The position numbers and the translations under genes are program-made. The notes beneath the pieces were generated by a model that was not told where the DNA came from, did not search any database, and was given only the letters and a program-made list of their open reading frames with translations. Below, piece by piece: positions 9,216-26,442 of a stretch of 64,000 nucleotides of DNA; the first letter of the stretch is position 1, and each line of letters starts with the position of its first letter. The stretch comes from a virus: positions 1 through 64,000 of the IMG/VR virus record IMGVR_UViG_3300028920_000022; one strand, 5' to 3'.

Positions 9216-9254
9216 GATTCCTCCTTATGTCATTTAATGGTTCCTTTCGTTGGG

Positions 9255-9324
9255 GTGATCGACGGGTAACGCTCCCGCTACAACAGTGCCACAAACTGTC
9301 CGCTCACTTTTTGCGTTCGATCAC
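9255..9324 (-). tRNA. tRNA-His (GTG), unusual D and T loops, no encoded G-1
   Basis: Acceptor GTGATC G/CGATCAC is a perfect 7-bp stem, anticodon stem ACAGT/ACTGT is perfect and its loop TTGTGGC gives GTG. The D-arm is only CGC/GCG with loop AAAAAGTGA (no GG pair), and the T-loop is AGCGTTA instead of TTCRANN. The base before the acceptor is T, not the G that bacterial tRNA-His genes encode, and base 73 is C, the pairing partner G-1 needs. Only about 3 nt separate it from tRNA-Asn. A Thg1-type enzyme is encoded at 22721. Confidence 0.75.
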
Positions 9325-9327
9325 AGC

Positions 9328-9399
9328 TCCCCGAGTTGAGATTCGAACTCACGACCACGCGGTTAACAGCCGCGCGCTCTACCACTGAGCTATCGGGGA
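9328..9399 (-). tRNA. tRNA-Asn (GTT)
   Basis: Acceptor TCCCCGA/TCGGGGA, D-stem GCTC/GAGC, anticodon stem CGCGG/CCGCG, loop CTGTTAA giving GTT, T-loop TTCGAAT. One extra C lies between T-stem and acceptor. Followed within a few nt by tRNA-His. Confidence 0.9.
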
Positions 9400-9881: not shown

Positions 9882-9955
9882 GCCCATACCGAAATTCGAA
9901 TTCGGGATCTCTTGATTGACAATCAAGCGTCTTAACCTAGCTGGACCATATGGGC
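9882..9955 (-). tRNA. tRNA-Asp (GTC)
   Basis: Acceptor GCCCATA/TATGGGC, anticodon stem CTTGA/TCAAG, loop TTGTCAA giving GTC, T-arm CCGAA-TTCGAAT-TTCGG. Confidence 0.92.
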
Positions 9956-18498: not shown

Positions 18499-19110
18499 TC
18501 AAACAACTATATCCTCTATTATTTTTTCTTCACAAGTAAGCAGTTTATCTGGGCAAATTGCGGATTTAACCCGCATGTGATTTGCGGTGTAGAATTTACC
18601 TCTACCAATCATTCCACAATTTGAACATTTAAACATATTTGCGTCTCTATTGTTCTTCACTTTTTCCCAAATATGACCAAATATTTTCATTGGTTTTATT
18701 ATATTTGAAGAAGTAACCCATGTTATGGCACTAATCGACAGATCACTGGCAGAATCATAAATAACCATATCCAACATTTCTAAATTTTCAGGCTTTCTAA
18801 TTTCTGTATATGTTTTTGCTTTTTTAGCTTCTGGCTTTAATAACCTCACCCTGGTGTTTAAATTAAAATTAATATGTTGTGTTGATGGTCTTCTAAACCA
18901 GCGATGATATTCTTGATTTATTAATAATTCTTCGTGTTTATATTTTGAAAAATTTTCTTGTACTCGGTCATACAGCCCGCCTGCAACGTAAGGCACAATC
19001 ATCCAGCTGGGAACGCAAGAAAGATTATATACTAAATCTTCACTGGCGTTTTGGTTTATTTCTGTTGCGGTACCATGCGCTTGCACCGTACCAAACGATT
19101 GCATCGTCAT
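18499..19110 (-). CDS. Two-domain protein: unknown N-domain fused to an HCCC-tail domain
   Basis: 203 aa. Residues 1-150 are an unrelated domain; from about 155 the array domain appears: GHIWEK, FKCSNCGMIG, LLTCEEKIIEDIVV. It is a second case, with 12086, of the domain fused to a different protein, which argues that the domain is a portable C-terminal module. Confidence 0.75.
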   Translation of the reverse strand: MTMQSFGTVQAHGTATEINQNASEDLVYNLSCVPSWMIVPYVAGGLYDRVQENFSKYKHEELLINQEYHRWFRRPSTQHINFNLNTRVRLLKPEAKKAKTYTEIRKPENLEMLDMVIYDSASDLSISAITWVTSSNIIKPMKIFGHIWEKVKNNRDANMFKCSNCGMIGRGKFYTANHMRVKSAICPDKLLTCEEKIIEDIVV

Positions 19111-19379
19111 ACTATTACGTCCTGAATATAGAACTCATCTATAGTTAACATTAAAATGTTTTGGTTTTTATCATCCCATACGAATTTATCATCGGGAGAT
19201 CTGCGAATGGCTTTTTGTCCGCTTTTTTGGCAACGTATTAATTGTGGATATTCGGCATCTTTGTTTTCTATCCAACTATAGCTCTCTGCAGCTTTTATAG
19301 CGCGTTGAAGCTGCGATTCGGATAGGGCAACACCAGAACCATAGCTTTTTGCTTCCCCCAACCAAACCTGATAAGCCAC
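19107..19379 (-). CDS. Small protein with divergent array tail (GTG start)
   Basis: 90 aa, GTG at 19379 overlapping the upstream TAG (TAGTG). N-terminal helix with LSESQLQRAIKAAESY, single Cys, C-terminus FYIQDVIV resembling the tail. No knuckle. Confidence 0.65.
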   Translation of the reverse strand: MAYQVWLGEAKSYGSGVALSESQLQRAIKAAESYSWIENKDAEYPQLIRCQKSGQKAIRRSPDDKFVWDDKNQNILMLTIDEFYIQDVIV

Positions 19380-19600
19380 TACTTTTTGACCTCGAAAGAT
19401 TCTTGAAGTTTTTGTTGGGCGTAATTTAATTCGTTTTTGTCTAGTTGATAATCTTTTGTAATGTTAGTTTTTAATATATCGCTTATTAGCCGCTCTATTT
19501 CACACGCCCATCTGTGGTCTCTAGAGCCCGGAAAATATCCTTGACGCAAATTTCTTGCAATTTCTAACGCTTCTAAAAGATATGTTCGTCCACTGTCCAC
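19379..19600 (-). CDS. Helical hypothetical protein
   Basis: 73 aa, helix-rich (YLLEALEIARNLRQGY, NELNYAQQKLQESFE). No tail. Stop TAG shares a base pair with the next GTG start. Confidence 0.65.
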   Translation of the reverse strand: MDSGRTYLLEALEIARNLRQGYFPGSRDHRWACEIERLISDILKTNITKDYQLDKNELNYAQQKLQESFEVKK

Positions 19601-19636
19601 GAATTACTACTAAAAATACAGCTAGCGCCTCGACGA

Positions 19637-19891
19637 TTATACGATAATATTTCTTATTACGATCTCTTTGCAAGTTAAACCCTCGTTATCTATAAGTTCG
19701 TAATATAAAGGGATAATGTGGGTTTTTCCCATATTAGCGTTTCCCAAGCAGTCTTTTGTTACCGGCATGCCTGTAGGAATATTACTTATTCCTATTGCTT
19801 GGCAATTTTTACATTTGAAATAGGTGGCAGACATAGTTTCCCACCGATAAACCCAATCATGAGTTTCCATAATTTCCATAGGCTGAATCAT
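19637..19891 (-). CDS. HCCC-tail protein
   Basis: 84 aa. H11 (ETHDW), C27/C30 in YFKCKNC, C74 in LTCKE, tail VIRNIIV. The middle segment between knuckle and late Cys is longer than in the GTH clade. Coupled to the Pth2 gene upstream. Confidence 0.75.
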   Translation of the reverse strand: MIQPMEIMETHDWVYRWETMSATYFKCKNCQAIGISNIPTGMPVTKDCLGNANMGKTHIIPLYYELIDNEGLTCKEIVIRNIIV

Positions 19892-20328
19892 AACAGTCTC
19901 TGTTTCTTTAGTAACGGATCTCTTTCATCCCTAAACATAGGAGGAAGAATCATCACAGTTGTGGTTTTGGGCGCAACTTCAGTTTTTCCCGCATCGATAA
20001 CTACGATAGGATTATATATTTCCTTTAGCTTAAACCAATCTTTGTCGTGAGCCCCAAGAACCAGTTTGGTGAACCCTCCATTTTCCTCCATGTTTTCCCA
20101 AAGAGTAATTCGTTGAACCAAATTTGGTAAACCAGAACCACAAACAAGAGGATCCCAAAAAGCACCATTTTCGCAAAACTTCCTATATTCCAAATCTAGC
20201 AAATGTACAGCATGACCACATTGGGCTCCAACTTTCCCGATACCCATATTAAGATCTTTTCTGACAACCAGATATACTACCAAAGAATCTTCTGGGGTAG
20301 GATTGCGAGGTAAAGGTTGAGCGTCCAT
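19888..20328 (-). CDS. Peptidyl-tRNA hydrolase, type II (Pth2-like)
   Basis: 146 aa. The Pth2 signature VVRKDLNMGIGKVGAQCGHA (residues 21-40; K32, Q36, H39) and the second motif DAGKTEVAPKTTTV (D112, T116) are both present. Pth2 cleaves peptides from stalled peptidyl-tRNA and is the archaeal/eukaryotic form; few bacteria use it, so a phage copy is noteworthy. Length is near the usual 115-180 aa. Adjacent upstream is the RlmN-like gene, giving a translation-related pair. Confidence 0.85.
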   Translation of the reverse strand: MDAQPLPRNPTPEDSLVVYLVVRKDLNMGIGKVGAQCGHAVHLLDLEYRKFCENGAFWDPLVCGSGLPNLVQRITLWENMEENGGFTKLVLGAHDKDWFKLKEIYNPIVVIDAGKTEVAPKTTTVMILPPMFRDERDPLLKKQRLL

Positions 20329-21360
20329 CTAATATCTCGTCAGCGTATATTCACATTCAGGTTTGCTTCCTGCAAGAATAGCGTTTCCGCAGGTAATTCT
20401 TCCCAGGTCTTCCTCCAGAGAAGGAACAAATACCAACACATCAAAACCAGCTTTTTTCAAAGAATCTTCTGCTTGCTGGTAAGGATAAAATTGCTGATAA
20501 GCGTTTTCATCCCAGAATTTGTTCTGTACGCATGCATCGGTTTTGTGCATTGGAGTAATTTTACACATAAATTTATCCGGATCAAACAGTTTTGCCAGTT
20601 TAGTCCCACTAATTGCCGCATCAGTGAGAGCAAAGTTTAGAGCAATTTTACGTCCAACAACATCGGTAATGTTAGACATAATTTTGGAAATATCTTCCAA
20701 ACCCAAAGCAGACCCACCAAAATCTTCGAATCTTCTCTGCTCATCAGTAGTATTGATGGACAACTGTAGCCCAGCATTTCCTTCCATTAAATGGTTTTTA
20801 ATATCCATCCACTGGCAAATAAAAGCTTCGAGTCTTCTATTGTTTCGGGGCATCATGGTGGAAACAACGGGATGAAAACCCCAACCTCGTTTTTCTCTAA
20901 TTTCGTGTACCATATGTGGTGTAACTGATAATACATCATTATTGAAGGTGGGCTCACCCATTCTCGCAAAATGCAGGTTTAAACGATCTGTATGTTTTAC
21001 CTCGGGATGAATGGAAATAGCCGCGCGCATTTGGTTTAATAGATCGCCGTAGGTTGCATTATATCCTGGACCTACTTTGGGAACGTCGCAGAATTTACAT
21101 TTCATAGAGCACCCATATTGAGAAGAAATAGTAATCACCCATTTCTTTTCTAGTGGCATTAGCTTGCCATGAGGCACTCCGTTTATTTGATCTTTTAACC
21201 CCATAAAATCGGCTTTGACATTCTTTTCTTTACCATAATCGCCAAGAGAAAGACACTCCAGTTTTCTACCAGGATCAAAAAGAGATCTTTCGCCTTCAAC
21301 GATCAAGATGGTGCCGGTTGGAACAGCGATTTTTTCTTTGATTATAGAAAACATATTCAA
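20329..21360 (-). CDS. RlmN/Cfr-like radical SAM protein
   Basis: 343 aa. Cluster motif CSMKCKFC (C84, C88, C91) preceded by ISSQYG, then MGEPTFNN, LQLSINTTDE and NFALTDAAISG, all in RlmN order, and a late Cys in ITCGNAIL (C324) where RlmN has its methyl-carrying Cys. RlmN methylates A2503 of 23S rRNA and A37 of tRNA. The Cys that precedes SSQVGC in RlmN is here Thr77, so chemistry or target may differ. It lies downstream of a GC-rich structured leader (21361-21476). Confidence 0.8.
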   Translation of the reverse strand: MNMFSIIKEKIAVPTGTILIVEGERSLFDPGRKLECLSLGDYGKEKNVKADFMGLKDQINGVPHGKLMPLEKKWVITISSQYGCSMKCKFCDVPKVGPGYNATYGDLLNQMRAAISIHPEVKHTDRLNLHFARMGEPTFNNDVLSVTPHMVHEIREKRGWGFHPVVSTMMPRNNRRLEAFICQWMDIKNHLMEGNAGLQLSINTTDEQRRFEDFGGSALGLEDISKIMSNITDVVGRKIALNFALTDAAISGTKLAKLFDPDKFMCKITPMHKTDACVQNKFWDENAYQQFYPYQQAEDSLKKAGFDVLVFVPSLEEDLGRITCGNAILAGSKPECEYTLTRY

Positions 21361-21476
21361 CCCTTATGTAGAGTGGGTAGGGTGTTCTCACAGCCCTCGC
21401 GATTGCCACCCCTCCGTGAAGGTTCCCGAGCGGCGAGGATTACTACACGAATACGAAGGTTTCCCACAGTGAGTCT
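21361..21476 (-). ncRNA. GC-rich structured leader (candidate cis-regulatory RNA)
   Basis: A 116-nt gap between coupled genes, clearly GC-richer than its surroundings. Outer stem CCTCGC (21395-21400) with GCGAGG (21433-21438); inner arms around ACCCCTCC...AAGGT (21408-21423). No ORF fits. It would be the 5' leader of the RlmN-like gene. I match it to no known riboswitch. Confidence 0.4.
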
Positions 21477-22004
21477 TCAGTTAGGATCGTCCTCAATGAA
21501 AACGATTTTGGCGGCAACAATGTCTTTTCTAAGCTGGTCTCTCACAAACAGACAAATATAACTTCCATCGCCGTAGCCTGATGAACTAACCACACCACCA
21601 TCCATAATGCCGGCTCTACCACTATTTAGCGTTTTGTCGCACGCTTTTCCGTAGAACGTATTAAGATCCCCATATTCACCCTCGCCATTACCATACTTTG
21701 GATCGTCCCAAAACCCAGCTTGTCCCGAATCTACACCAACATCTATTCCTGAGTTTTCCCAACATTCGTTCAAAGCGTTAGGTAAACCATCTATGTCGGC
21801 ATGACGTATCTCAAGTTCAACAACTCTCTCATCATTAACGCGAATATAAGCTGTCCACTTGCCATTACGAACATCTTTCAAAGAACCAGCACACCAAGTA
21901 CCTCGGCTGTAACAAGGATCTGAAACAATAAGCGTTCCCGAAGTAATCTCGAACGTTCCTAGTTTATTGTCTACCATATCTTTCAAATGGGCTGTGTATA
22001 CCAT
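21477..22004 (-). CDS. Conserved protein of the SGTLIVSDPCY type (DUF4241-like)
   Basis: 175 aa. It has the block order I associate with this widespread family: FEITSGTLIVSDPCYSRGTW, GKWTAYIRV, VDSGQAGFWD, and GGVVSSSGYGDGSY followed by KIVFIEDD. The biochemical role is unknown. An alternative start at residue 10 is possible. Confidence 0.75.
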   Translation of the reverse strand: MVYTAHLKDMVDNKLGTFEITSGTLIVSDPCYSRGTWCAGSLKDVRNGKWTAYIRVNDERVVELEIRHADIDGLPNALNECWENSGIDVGVDSGQAGFWDDPKYGNGEGEYGDLNTFYGKACDKTLNSGRAGIMDGGVVSSSGYGDGSYICLFVRDQLRKDIVAAKIVFIEDDPN

Positions 22005-22017
22005 ATGTTTTGTCTTT

Positions 22018-22239
22018 CTAGTTTATATCGTAAACACAAGGTTCCGGAATTTTAACTGGCTCTTTCTTTTCGTTTACACACTTTGCGTTACATGCTTGGC
22101 AAGTATACGTATGCATCAAGCCTTCATGCAACAATGTGCCCTGAAGTTTTACTAGGGGGTCTTTATCTATTACAGGACCGTTTGGTGTTTCAACCGTGTA
22201 AAGATACTCGGATCCAGTATATTTCCAAACGTGTGTCAT
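22018..22239 (-). CDS. Small Cys protein
   Basis: 73 aa. H3, then a late knuckle TYTCQACNAKC (C47, C50, C54) and a final Cys in EPCVYDIN; no IIREIIE tail. Its start MTHVWKYTG resembles the double-knuckle proteins at 29.8-30.6 kb, so it may be a distant relative. Confidence 0.6.
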   Translation of the reverse strand: MTHVWKYTGSEYLYTVETPNGPVIDKDPLVKLQGTLLHEGLMHTYTCQACNAKCVNEKKEPVKIPEPCVYDIN

Positions 22240-22661
22240 GATGGTACTATTTTCCAGCCCAAATATTCTAGGTGAGCATTCGTCAGAACTATATTTGCAT
22301 CGCTGGCTTCGAGTTCAGGAACCAACGTGTCAGAATATGTGGGCGTTTTCCAAGTCAAAATTTCCTCAGCTCTTCCCAAACGTAGCTTCATTCCATTATC
22401 TCTTAGGAGCCTCCCAACCTTTCTTAGAATGGCTCTCTTGGCACGATGACCTATATCTGGGTTTGATACAGAAACGCCGTCAGGTAAAATCCTAATATTA
22501 ATAACACCGGCTTCTGGACGGAATCCAAAAACCAGCCTAGCAGTGTTCTTAGTATAATTACAGGTTTCAGAAAATGCCAAATCTGCAGCTTCCCAAAAAT
22601 GACGGTTGAAAACTGCCTTGTTTAAACCATTTCTAATTCTTCGCCAACTGATTTTTTTCAT
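22236..22661 (-). CDS. Basic hypothetical protein
   Basis: 141 aa from ATG 22661, chosen because GAGG lies 7 nt upstream and the promoter at 22684-22712 would start transcription near 22676. Basic N-terminus (MKKISWRRIRNGLNKAVF). Alpha/beta; no motif recognised. First gene of a promoter-driven unit. Confidence 0.65.
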   Translation of the reverse strand: MKKISWRRIRNGLNKAVFNRHFWEAADLAFSETCNYTKNTARLVFGFRPEAGVINIRILPDGVSVSNPDIGHRAKRAILRKVGRLLRDNGMKLRLGRAEEILTWKTPTYSDTLVPELEASDANIVLTNAHLEYLGWKIVPS

Positions 22662-22683
22662 GCCGAACCTCATTTTCAACAGT

Positions 22684-22712
22684 ATTTTATATGACACGCT
22701 GCGTCATGTCAA
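22684..22712 (-). promoter_or_regulatory. Sigma70-type promoter with overlapping palindrome
   Basis: Minus strand TTGACA, 17-nt spacer, TAAAAT. The -35 and spacer carry an imperfect palindrome GACATGACGCAGCGTGTC, the size and place of a repressor operator. Leader to ATG 22661 is about 15 nt. Confidence 0.65.
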
Positions 22713-22720
22713 GAAAAAGC

Positions 22721-23464
22721 TCACTCTTCTTTTTGAATTAAGAATTTCCCAATATATTCGCGATCTTGGGAGAAGATAGGTATATCCCAATCTTGATCAA
22801 GTTCGGTTCTAAACGTATCATCAGAAAATTTAATTGTTTTTCTAACTACACACCAGCCTCGCTTTTGAAAGGTAGCGCATTGATTCCAATCAATATTCTT
22901 ATGGCGAAGAAGCATTTCTTTCATACGTTTTGTATTCTTTTTGTGAAGCTCTTTGTGGGAGAAGTGTTTTTGGGCAAGCCCAGATATAGAATTTCTGATG
23001 GCATCAATCTGTCTCCAGTAAAAATAATTAACCACATCTTCTCTAGGAATAGTGAAACTACGGGCATCAAATATTGCTTTTTTATTAGGACGTTCTCCTT
23101 GTGCTAGCATAGCATAATTGAAAGCAACCGTAGCAGTACTAGCACTTACGCTGCTCATTTTTTGAACATTTTTATCAAACCACGGAGAAGTATCAAACTT
23201 TTCATAATCGTTGATTAACACCGAAATTTCGTCAGATTGGCAGTAGGCAATTTTGCTACCTTGTATACTATCTAGCAAATCTCTTGCAGCAGAAGACATT
23301 GCTTCTATTATTCTTAGATCCCAGGGTTTATCACATCCGCGAGTATAGGAGTGGAAGCTCTTACCATCTACTCTAACTATAGTTGGCATTCTTGGGGTAA
23401 TATAGATACGAGAAACATTCTCGTATCGTTTCATACGGTTGCCTAAGTCGGAATGATCAGTCAT
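22721..23464 (-). CDS. tRNA-His guanylyltransferase family (Thg1-like)
   Basis: 247 aa. RMPTIVRVDGKSFHSYTRG holds the first metal Asp (D33) and YCQSDEISVLI the D78-E79 pair, the catalytic triad of Thg1; the MKRYE segment near residue 11 is also typical. Thg1 adds G-1 to tRNA-His opposite base 73, and Thg1-like proteins repair 5'-truncated tRNAs in the 3'-5' direction. The window encodes a tRNA-His without G-1 and with C73, a fitting substrate. Length close to eukaryotic Thg1 (about 250 aa). Confidence 0.9.
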   Translation of the reverse strand: MTDHSDLGNRMKRYENVSRIYITPRMPTIVRVDGKSFHSYTRGCDKPWDLRIIEAMSSAARDLLDSIQGSKIAYCQSDEISVLINDYEKFDTSPWFDKNVQKMSSVSASTATVAFNYAMLAQGERPNKKAIFDARSFTIPREDVVNYFYWRQIDAIRNSISGLAQKHFSHKELHKKNTKRMKEMLLRHKNIDWNQCATFQKRGWCVVRKTIKFSDDTFRTELDQDWDIPIFSQDREYIGKFLIQKEE

Positions 23465-23946
23465 GCTGTTAGTAATTCTTTGGGTATATTTTTAGTTACT
23501 ATTTTTCGTATATATTGTCTATGTTTGTAATATTCCTCATTAGTTTGTTGACCATCTACTAATTCTCTCGTCCACTTTTCTCTAAGATCTAGCCACTCTA
23601 TATAATTATTAGCCTCTAATTTTGGTTCCCATTTATCGTCCACACCTTCGTCGCTACGAATTCCTTTCAAGGATATTCCAAGAGTGTTGGCTAACCAATA
23701 TTGCAAATAAGAAGAAAACTCGGAATGTCCTTGCAGAAAAGCAAGTTTTCTTTTGCTAAGAATAGAGATGTATAAACTGCCTATATGTTGTTTTGCTTCC
23801 AAACTAATTTCTATATATTTAGAATCATCACTAATATCTATACGACCATGTTTTCCGAATTTGTTCCTAACCAAATCGCTAATATAATTAGCAACAGTTT
23901 CTGGTTCTATATTACGCTTAAAAGTAATAAATGAGTGATTAGTCAT
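23461..23946 (-). CDS. Hypothetical protein
   Basis: 161 aa, begins MTNHSFITFKRNIEPETVA; alpha/beta with charged C-terminus (REKWTRELVDGQQTNEEYYK). Coupled to the Thg1-type gene by ATGA. No family recognised. Confidence 0.7.
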   Translation of the reverse strand: MTNHSFITFKRNIEPETVANYISDLVRNKFGKHGRIDISDDSKYIEISLEAKQHIGSLYISILSKRKLAFLQGHSEFSSYLQYWLANTLGISLKGIRSDEGVDDKWEPKLEANNYIEWLDLREKWTRELVDGQQTNEEYYKHRQYIRKIVTKNIPKELLTA

Positions 23947-24145
23947 CTTTGCTGTGACTCACTATTGCTGTTGTTATATTAGCACACCCTAGTAAAATTG
24001 ACAAGCATATCATAGCCCCAATAGCTCGAAATAAAAATTCGTCAGGAGATAAGTATATTGCTAAAGTCTCCGTTGGTACAACGAAAAGTAAAGTAATACC
24101 ATTGATGTGTATAATTTTTAGTTTGTGATCAGTGTTTTTTGACAC
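23939..24145 (-). CDS. Two-helix membrane protein (GTG start)
   Basis: 68 aa. GTG 24145 is preceded by GGAG at 7 nt and overlaps the end of the upstream gene. Two hydrophobic segments (IHINGITLLFVVPTETLAIY; AIGAMICLSILLGCANIT). Confidence 0.6.
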   Translation of the reverse strand: MSKNTDHKLKIIHINGITLLFVVPTETLAIYLSPDEFLFRAIGAMICLSILLGCANITTAIVSHSKDD

Positions 24146-24326
24146 GTTTATACTCCGTAAGATAGTACGACAATGGACCAGCAACCAACATTCCAACGCA
24201 CATTCCTGCAAAGATTTTGCAGTAACCTACTGCGGTAGGCTCAACCCACGACAAAAACAAAATAAAAAGCAACATCAACCCTAATGCCACAAAAATAAAA
24301 TATAGGTTCATTTTGATATCTTTCAT
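24129..24326 (-). CDS. Two-helix membrane protein
   Basis: 65 aa. Helices at about 8-27 and 35-54, basic C-terminus KRVKKH. Small membrane proteins of this type next to each other could act as holin or superinfection factors; nothing specific shows that. Confidence 0.65.
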   Translation of the reverse strand: MKDIKMNLYFIFVALGLMLLFILFLSWVEPTAVGYCKIFAGMCVGMLVAGPLSYYLTEYKRVKKH

Positions 24327-24544
24327 TTTAGCCCCCTTAACATTCCAAGAACACGTTGCCTAGCCGCCAACTCATTTTCCCATCGCCTAACAATAGCCGT
24401 TTCTTTCTGTCTAAAATGAGGGTATAACTCTACCCGCTCGTTAGCAGCTTCTAACATGTTTTGGGCATGTTGAACCTGTTGCTCTAAACGTGTCTGTAGC
24501 TCTTTGACAATAAGAGTTACTTTGTTGTTGATCTTGTCAGTCAT
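24323..24544 (-). CDS. Coiled-coil small protein
   Basis: 73 aa from ATG 24544, which overlaps the last codons of the kinase-phosphatase gene by 8 nt. Almost all helix (ELQTRLEQQVQHAQNMLEA). Confidence 0.65.
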   Translation of the reverse strand: MTDKINNKVTLIVKELQTRLEQQVQHAQNMLEAANERVELYPHFRQKETAIVRRWENELAARQRVLGMLRGLK

Positions 24545-25460
24545 TGAAAAACCTATCCGCATAACAAAACTGAAAACCACACCTGGAAGCAAACGTTTCG
24601 TCCGCCTTCAGATCTCCCACCATTAAACATAACGCTGGGTTTAATTTATATTTGACGATAAAATATACTCCGATACCAGGCATCGGCTTTCTACTCCACG
24701 TTCTAATCGGTGGTACTCCAGAAGGATCGAATTTGTAATCAATATCATGACCCAGTAGTTTATTGGTATATTCAAACAACTCAGTAGCTTTTTCCAACGT
24801 CAGGTCTTTTTTAGCAACTCCGGATTGATTTGATGCCCCACACAAAATGAACCCATTATTTTTGAATTCGGTTAACTTTTCTGCGCGCTCCGGGAGTATT
24901 TTTATTTGACTTTTTTCGGTTGGAAACTTACCATTTCCCCCAACACAATCTCTCAATGTTCCATCGTAATCCAAGATTAGTGCTTTGTTTTTGAATGATG
25001 AATTCCAATTCCTTTTGAATGGCACCTTAACTATTGAATCAAAACCTTCTTCCGTAGTGGGTTTTTGAAATTCCTTACGATATTTGAAAATAACAGCAGG
25101 CGGAAAAATGCCCGGGTCATTAGATTGAGATTCTAATATTTGATTATATTTATTCATGGATCGCAAACAATAATTAACCTGAGAGTCTTCAATTGAGGTT
25201 TGCATCCAATGGCATTCTACATTAGCTTTGTATTTCTTGGCTAGGTCAATAAATGGTTTTCTAGACGTTTGAGTAGCAAATAGGTTGTCCAACACTATAT
25301 TTGAACCGTTTTTGAGTTGCCGTTCCATTTCTGGCAACAGGGAGTTTAATTTGCCGCCGACTGTATCTCTGTTCAAACGAAAATATCCCTCATTCAGAAA
25401 CTGTTCTGTGACGGTAGTTTTTCCTGAGGCGGGAAAACCCAAAACTAATATTACGTTCAC
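24537..25460 (-). CDS. pseT: Polynucleotide kinase / 3'-phosphatase (T4 Pnk type)
   Basis: 307 aa. N-terminal kinase with P-loop GFPASGKTT (8-16) and LNRDT (D32, general base position), C-terminal HAD phosphatase with DYDGT (D164, D166) and MVGDLKADETF near 288. The kinase-then-phosphatase order and length match T4 Pnk, which heals broken tRNA ends before ligation. No RNA ligase is seen in the window. Together with Thg1 and tRNA genes it suggests tRNA repair against host anticodon nucleases. Symbol given by analogy to T4. Confidence 0.88.
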   Translation of the reverse strand: MNVILVLGFPASGKTTVTEQFLNEGYFRLNRDTVGGKLNSLLPEMERQLKNGSNIVLDNLFATQTSRKPFIDLAKKYKANVECHWMQTSIEDSQVNYCLRSMNKYNQILESQSNDPGIFPPAVIFKYRKEFQKPTTEEGFDSIVKVPFKRNWNSSFKNKALILDYDGTLRDCVGGNGKFPTEKSQIKILPERAEKLTEFKNNGFILCGASNQSGVAKKDLTLEKATELFEYTNKLLGHDIDYKFDPSGVPPIRTWSRKPMPGIGVYFIVKYKLNPALCLMVGDLKADETFASRCGFQFCYADRFFND

Positions 25461-25714
25461 TTTTCTCTACACCTTAGCAACTGTCGTTCGTAACCTTCGA
25501 CCCACACCCAACCGTGCGGACATACAGATTGTATATAGTCTGTACAATTCACACCAACACCATAACACTCAAAAACCATAGCTGGTTGCCCATCTGCAGC
25601 CATGGTTTCCTCAACACTATGATGTGGATAACTTGCCCAAACACCAAAGCATATGATGCCTATAAGCGTTATACTGAAAAATGAAAAACACAGTAGTTCC
25701 TGGTAGTCCCTCAT
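25457..25714 (-). CDS. Membrane-anchored Cys protein
   Basis: 85 aa from ATG 25714; a TTG five codons upstream is possible, but GGAG sits 9 nt before this ATG. One helix (LLCFSFFSITLIGIICFGVW), then a short domain with four Cys (FECYGVGVNC...SVCPHG...LLRC). Confidence 0.65.
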   Translation of the reverse strand: MRDYQELLCFSFFSITLIGIICFGVWASYPHHSVEETMAADGQPAMVFECYGVGVNCTDYIQSVCPHGWVWVEGYERQLLRCREK

Positions 25715-25776
25715 ACATCCAATCTCCAATCACCTTCCAGTAACGTTTTCCTTACCCAAATAGTGAGTGCGAATAA

Positions 25777-26442
25777 TTACTCTTGCACCCATGGGGACTG
25801 GTTTGTGTAGGGTTGGTTGCATTGTATACTCCTCTTGAATTGTTCCAACCTATCATAAAACCGCGGCTCCCACAAGTTCAAATAATCTTTTCCTTTTTGA
25901 GATGGATTATTGATTAATTCAAAATATATTTCGCCGCATTTTTGATAATCTAATATTTTTCCGTGCTTTGTAATTTGTGTGCCAAAATCTAAAACCCTCA
26001 TGGCATGAAATAATGATTTCTTTGCCTTCTCCAGACTGCCGGCAGTAAAACGCACCTCAGCTTTTTCAAAGTCTAATCTGGATTTTCTACATATGTTGTT
26101 CGCAAGTACGGTTTTGTTTGGAGTAAAACTAAAAACAGCCGTATTCAGTAGCAACAACTCTTCTGGTAAGAAAATACATTCCATTGCGGAGATAGAATGT
26201 TCCTTTAGTTTTTGAGAAAAAGATTGGGTATCGTACACTATGGCACTGAATTGCCTACCTAAGTATTCTCCCTTCAAATTTAGGCAATCTATTTCTATTG
26301 GTTTAATATATGTATTACCCACAACAATATAATCGTAGTCTGATTTGTGGGAGTTTGTACCATATACACGTGACCCAAACGGATATACATTGAGCACATC
26401 CGCATTATTGAGGTTCAGGGCTTTAATCAAATGACCATACAT
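25777..26442 (-). CDS. Nucleotidyltransferase (Pol beta fold)
   Basis: 221 aa. Motif GSRVYGTNSHKSDYDYIV (G23, S24, metal Asp D35 and D37) defines the minimal nucleotidyltransferase fold. Resembles the predicted nucleotidyltransferases of other large phages. Target (tRNA, protein or antibiotic-like) is unknown; a tRNA 3'-end role would fit the neighbourhood. Confidence 0.8.
   Translation of the reverse strand: MYGHLIKALNLNNADVLNVYPFGSRVYGTNSHKSDYDYIVVGNTYIKPIEIDCLNLKGEYLGRQFSAIVYDTQSFSQKLKEHSISAMECIFLPEELLLLNTAVFSFTPNKTVLANNICRKSRLDFEKAEVRFTAGSLEKAKKSLFHAMRVLDFGTQITKHGKILDYQKCGEIYFELINNPSQKGKDYLNLWEPRFYDRLEQFKRSIQCNQPYTNQSPWVQE

Follow-up and report, generated by a model that had tools for sequence, protein, structure and literature searches.

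Co-varying elbow positions point to an intact, rewired tRNA-His in a large phage that also encodes a Thg1-like protein

With a probability of roughly 0.78, the gene analyzed here is an intact phage tRNA-His in which the D/T elbow has been rewired through compensating substitutions. It lies in a 64,000-nucleotide stretch (the window; positions 1-64000 of a virus record 458,729 bases long), together with a Thg1-like protein (Table 1). The D/T-loop contacts of cytosolic tRNAs are nearly invariant, and almost no natural co-variation evidence is therefore available for them. Phage tRNAs appear to provide this missing elbow co-variation, showing which substitutions are matched.

Table 1. Features of the window; tRNA-His position 1 is base 9324 and C73 is base 9254 (minus strand).
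Feature	Position	Strand	Evidence
tRNA-His(GTG) gene body, positions 1-73	9254..9324	-	sequence; ARAGORN mt mode; stem scan
tRNA-His acceptor stem GTGATCG/CGATCAC, 7/7 paired	9318-9324/9255-9261	-	sequence
tRNA-His D-stem CGC/GCG	9313-9315/9301-9303	-	sequence
tRNA-His D-loop AAAAAGTGA, 9 nt, by position A18 G19 instead of G18 G19	9304..9312	-	
tRNA-His anticodon arm, stem ACAGT/ACTGT, 5/5 paired	9283-9299	-	sequence
tRNA-His anticodon loop TTGTGGC (GTG)	9288..9294	-	sequence
tRNA-His T-stem GCGGG/CCCGT, 5/5 with one G-U	9274-9278/9262-9266	-	sequence
tRNA-His T-loop AGCGTTA (A54 G55 C56 G57 U58 U59 A60)	9267..9273	-	
tRNA-His discriminator C73, a possible template base for adding G-1	9254	-	sequence
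tRNA-His encoded 3' CCA	9251..9253	-	sequence
Spacer CT, 2 nt, tRNA-Asn to tRNA-His; 9325, position -1, is T instead of G	9325..9326	-	
tRNA-Asn(GTT), canonical elbow, CCA not encoded, immediately upstream of tRNA-His	9327..9399	-	ARAGORN, Rfam
Peptidyl-tRNA hydrolase PTH2, 146 aa	19888..20328	-	Pfam PF01981 5.4e-15
Thg1-like protein, 247 aa	22721..23464	-	Pfam PF04446 8.2e-30; phmmer to 4kgk 2.9e-68
Polynucleotide kinase/phosphatase-like protein, 307 aa	24537..25460	-	Pfam AAA_33 + PNK3P
Pol-beta-type nucleotidyltransferase, 221 aa	25777..26442	-	PF18765 1.4e-5, PF01909 0.0014, both slightly below gathering cut-offs

The gene reads GTGATCG AA CGC AAAAAGTGA GCG G ACAGT TTGTGGC ACTGT TGTA GCGGG AGCGTTA CCCGT CGATCAC C CCA and forms four base-paired arms of standard length, with a D-stem of 3 bp. 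It carries the GUG anticodon, U33, purine 37 (G37) and C73 of bacterial tRNA-His and no encoded G-1, base 9325 being T; A8·A14 and A15·A48 are likewise non-standard. The gene sits within a cluster of tRNAs, and no second tRNA-His was found in the record. The sequence confirmed the base-level reading of the first-pass annotation (T at -1, C73, a D-loop lacking GG, T-loop AGCGTTA, perfect acceptor and anticodon stems). It also bore out the proximity to tRNA-Asn, although the spacer is 2 nt rather than the stated "about 3 nt" and the encoded CCA had gone unmentioned. The description of the D- and T-loops as merely "minimal" did not hold: together the loops make up an elbow with internal compensation that recurs across many isotypes in phage contigs.

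Elbow co-variation was surveyed across 507 fetched loci (3.76 Mb, mostly phage) using a stem-only cloverleaf scan that required U33 and purine 37 and left D- and T-loop sequence unconstrained; 580 distinct tRNAs having a canonical T-loop or an encoded CCA were kept. U55C56 T-loops co-occurred with a D-loop GG in 539/540 cases, G55C56 T-loops with AG in 28/29 (GG in 0/29), and U55U56 T-loops with GA in 6/6 (GG in 0/6), while single tRNAs combined G55A56 with AT and C55G56 with GC. The association of D-loop GG with T-loop class gave a Fisher p of 7e-48, tRNAs of one contig being not fully independent. Among 9-nt D-loops, in which 18 and 19 are set by position, A18G19 was found in 15/15 G55C56 tRNAs and G18G19 in 85/85 U55C56 tRNAs. 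The 54·58 pair was T·A in 546 of the 580, followed by A·T (20), A·A (7), G·G (5) and C·A (2). A48 accompanied A54 (16/27 vs 24/450, p = 1.8e-12), and an A54-A48 coupling has been reported for eukaryotic tRNA-Ala (PMC7566577). The G55C56 set spans 13 loci and 21 anticodons. Loci that had not been chosen by T-arm pattern (window included) contributed 12 odd T-loops, all 12 of which fit the scheme, and both G55C56 tRNAs of an additional contig conform to it.

If the class is defined by a G55C56 T-loop and an A18G19 D-loop without GG, the window tRNA-His is a member. Its elbow is predicted to comprise A54·U58, A18·G55, G19-C56 and A15·A48, with putative pair geometry. For the phage tRNAs with rewired elbows as a whole, the co-varying, matched replacements are well supported, and they would build the D/T contact. 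The literature searched yielded no description of altered D/T loops in phage tRNAs: the tRNA reviews do not mention phage, and a study of anticodon-loop escape by phage tRNAs is silent on D- and T-loops. As far as this literature shows, the rewired elbow class is undescribed in phages.

The T-arm itself recurs. An IMG/VR scan recovered the exact 17-nt T-arm GCGGGAGCGTTACCCGT in 18 stretches, most of them within complete cloverleaves of various isotypes (Ala, Asp, His, Gly and Cys); beside the exact matches, the T-loop AGCGTTA sits on other T-stems in Glu and Phe tRNAs. TRNAs with rewired elbows, some unannotated, also occur in the named phages Pelagibacter phage HTVC008M and, near position 9888, Pseudomonas phage ventosus, and Stenotrophomonas phage DLP_6 carries T-loops of related types, A54/U58 and U55U56. 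The HTVC008M genome carries an unannotated tRNA with T-loop AGCGTTA at 91140-91213 (L456:6001-6074), directly before the phage S21 gene. In a cellular survey covering one T-loop variant and one phylum, the AGCGTTA T-arm pattern with CCA stayed at background level in 299 Pseudomonadota genomes (seed genome G124 included), with one contig excepted. This exception, NZ_JAILWB010000012.1 (L515-L516), is a 158-kb contig in a Hydrogenophaga MAG with at least 28 tRNAs, a Thg1 and odd T-loops; it looks phage-derived and mis-binned. Another contig with rewired-elbow tRNAs contains a weak match to bacterial class B RNase P RNA (L447:4171-4349, 24.9 bits, E 0.0075, below the gathering score).

Homologous tRNA-His genes show that the stems are maintained. 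One, in IMG/VR record G008, has canonical loops (GTGACCGAACGCAAATTGGTTAGCGGACTGATTGTGGCTCAGTTGTTTCTTGCGGGTTCGATTCCCGTCGGTCACC), T at -1 and C73, and follows a tRNA-like gene at a distance of 3 nt. The other (L444, contig G113) is a close homologue with an identical D-loop, T at -1 and C73. Across the three genes, six stem positions differ and pairing is kept at each, with two-sided compensatory changes at five (5:68, 6:67, 11:24, 29:41 and 31:39), which argues for constraint rather than decay. A D-arm pattern search matched only G008 and three non-tRNA stretches, and exact-sequence searches with the D-arm half and the anticodon arm produced no hits, or else other tRNA-His and unrelated sequence. 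The contig of the closest His homologue also carries a tmRNA of the beta/permuted type (L444:5106-5510).

Standard tools handle these tRNAs poorly. The Rfam model RF00005 gave no match to the isolated tRNA-His stretch even at E<=10, and ARAGORN in bacterial mode did not call the gene. In -mt/-mtmam mode, ARAGORN reported it as mtRNA-His(gtg), and in the stem-only scan of the whole 458,729-base record it scored level with the best canonical tRNAs. The covariance scan suggested beforehand as a check on the tRNA would thus reject it, whereas ARAGORN mt mode and the stem scan recover it. RNAfold found the isolated RNA weakly more stable than shuffles (z = -1.45), with a predicted T-arm fold unlike a cloverleaf. 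All 16 tRNAs that ARAGORN found in the record have canonical T-loops. Within the 580-tRNA set, ARAGORN recovered 521/523 canonical tRNAs vs 16/29 G55C56 tRNAs, and Rfam missed several. Since many rewired-elbow tRNAs escape common annotation tools, the tRNA numbers given for phages are probably underestimates.

The second component, the Thg1-like protein, has the Pfam Thg1 domain and the D/D/E acids of the Thg1/TLP superfamily. The claim that an intact Thg1 is co-encoded proved sound, as D33, D78 and E79 are invariant in 13 aligned phage homologues. Its nearest solved structure is a bacterial Thg1-like protein (4kgk, a full-length homologue), which, with 4kgm, we take to be that of Bacillus thuringiensis (BtTLP). 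Compared with the latter, the window protein is likewise full-length and has the catalytic acids, but it is phage-encoded and its activity is predicted. The G008 Thg1 is 54% identical to it and among its closest IMG/VR relatives, three near-identical contigs reaching 55%. Bacterial tRNA-His normally encodes G-1, which RNase P retains, and in vitro the Thg1-like proteins of bacteria place G-1 across from C73 (PMC6471195); a T-1/C73 tRNA-His and a Thg1 in one genome therefore make sense. G-1 addition opposite C73 by Thg1 is thus plausible in the window phage and its close Thg1 relative G008, the only two of the 11 Thg1-bearing records with a C73 tRNA-His that do not encode G-1.

A general phage module of Thg1 and G-1-less tRNA-His was considered and rejected. 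The canonical tRNA-His pattern was found in 11/50 Thg1-bearing IMG/VR records, several of these matches not being tRNA-His. Where Thg1-bearing records have a C73 tRNA-His, G-1 is encoded in 9/11 (phage G, RAS14, XacN1, LR745206, G009, G026, G084, G101 and the Hydrogenophaga contig). Thg1 presence does not predict missing G-1: T-1/C73 tRNA-His occurs in 2/11 records with Thg1 vs 5/28 without a detected Thg1 (Fisher p = 1.0, many contigs being incomplete). No Thg1 was detected in those contigs matching the AGCGTTA T-arm that were searched for it, which are partly incomplete. By this survey, Thg1 cannot serve across phages in general to mature a phage tRNA-His; it may do so in the lineage of the window phage. 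Prevotella phage Lak-B2 (L113), which also bears Thg1, has a tRNA-His call with several acceptor-stem mismatches. CcrColossus, DSS3_MAL1 and Atu_ph07 (L112, L114 and L115; alphaproteobacterial hosts) have tRNA-His without G-1 and with A73 or T73, unlike the window.

Three other readings were weighed. The tRNA-His could be a pseudogene in decay whose elbow has been lost, given that neither Rfam nor bacterial-mode ARAGORN sees it, that the related G008 gene has canonical loops and that A8·A14 and A15·A48 depart from the standard too. Against this, all stems are intact and co-vary with those of homologues, and the identical T-loop is kept across isotypes and many contigs with D-loops to match. 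We consider decay highly improbable, and a chance match or pseudogene was rejected on the perfect stems, the co-variation with homologues and the recurrence of the elbow. A tRNA with an odd elbow might instead be a decoy or be dedicated to a non-ribosomal task, and not act as an adaptor in translation. There is precedent: some staphylococcal tRNA-Gly of cell-wall synthesis lack GG and T-Psi-C. The odd elbow spans 21 anticodons and not one amino acid, however, and CCA, U33 and purine 37 are retained (the scan demanded U33 and purine 37, yet the window tRNA does have both), so that we regard this as an improbable reading as well.

A stronger competitor accepts the elbow as functional and separates Thg1 from it. 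Thg1 would act in 5'-end repair of cleaved tRNAs, whether from the host or the phage, together with the nearby Pnkp and PTH2, and the host HisRS would tolerate U-1 or no N-1. Annotated phage records with a Thg1 number 127, and IMG/VR contributes at least 565 stretches; most of those sampled have no detectable tRNA-His. Most Thg1 phages with a C73 tRNA-His encode G-1, repair genes lie near the window Thg1, and such a role has already been proposed, published work leaving undecided whether phage Thg1 acts in tRNA-His maturation or in repair (PMC2904730, PMC7824862). The co-occurrence of Thg1 with a G-1-less C73 tRNA-His in the window phage and its close Thg1 relative speaks against the separation, and we give this reading a little under an even chance. 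The self-contained route to tRNA-His envisaged in the first-pass annotation stands in part: the tRNA is real, lacks G-1 and has C73, the Thg1 is apparently intact, and G008 is alike. It is weakened by the encoded G-1 of most Thg1 records, by T-arm-match contigs without Thg1 and by the lack of a HisRS gene in the record.

Our preferred reading remains an intact tRNA-His with a compensated elbow. It would decode His codons and, judging from sequence co-variation, fold into the L-shape via alternative contacts: the outer G19-C56 would be kept, and the canonical T54·A58 and G18·Psi55 would be swapped together for A54·U58 and A18·G55. The modifications m5U54 and Psi55 should not be possible, because U54 and U55 are absent. 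By established biology, host RNase P would cut the Asn-CU-His precursor at +1, since a G-1:C73 pair that could displace the cleavage site is missing. The phage Thg1-like protein might then add G-1, templated by C73, a step that is not a general phage rule and that we put forward tentatively, at somewhat less than even odds. Since the record has no HisRS, charging of the finished tRNA-His depends on the host, whose HisRS would have to accept it. More speculatively, and in our view unlikely as a whole, large phages may carry a tRNA set with matched elbows (54/58, 18/55, 19/56 and 15/48) that is independent of host T54/Psi55 modification and handled differently by host elbow-recognizing enzymes or tRNA-targeting defenses, the His member also being 5'-finished by phage Thg1.

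The window tRNA resembles several known systems in part. With canonical bacterial tRNA-His (G-1:C73) it shares the GUG anticodon, C73, the 7-bp acceptor and the cloverleaf, but it has T at -1 and changes at all of positions 18, 54, 55 and 58. Eukaryotic tRNA-Ala and initiator tRNA, with A54/A58 and R15/A48, likewise couple a purine 54 to A48; the window tRNA differs by U58 and by a changed 18/55, and the A54/A58 and R15/A48 pairs are stated to be absent from bacterial or archaeal tRNAs (PMC7566577). Mitochondrial type II tRNAs and tRNA-Pyl also lack GG and T-Psi-C (PMC7609411), and a mitochondrial tRNA search finds the window gene; in those tRNAs the contact is lost, whereas the window tRNA keeps G19-C56 and its loop changes are matched. 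The rewired-elbow tRNAs are natural phage genes and could serve as test molecules for RNase P, HisRS, EF-Tu, TruB/TrmA and anti-phage tRNases. In 2003 and 2004 Zagryadskaya (titles cited in PMC7912444) reportedly selected suppressor tRNAs in the laboratory whose D/T contacts are changed, with alternative 54-58 and D/T solutions that work; those molecules, in contrast, came from libraries.

Elsewhere in the window, positions 18499-26442 hold a cluster of Thg1, a Pnkp-like kinase/phosphatase, PTH2, a radical-SAM protein and a Pol-beta nucleotidyltransferase, which looks like a tRNA repair or maintenance region. The record also encodes a CCA-adding-type enzyme. A reassigned genetic code was rejected, as all three stops end long ORFs. 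Outside the window, a tRNA with anticodon TTA, reading the stop UAA, has the best score of the record (G000:451588-451662, 71.5 bits) and coexists with this use of all three stop codons.
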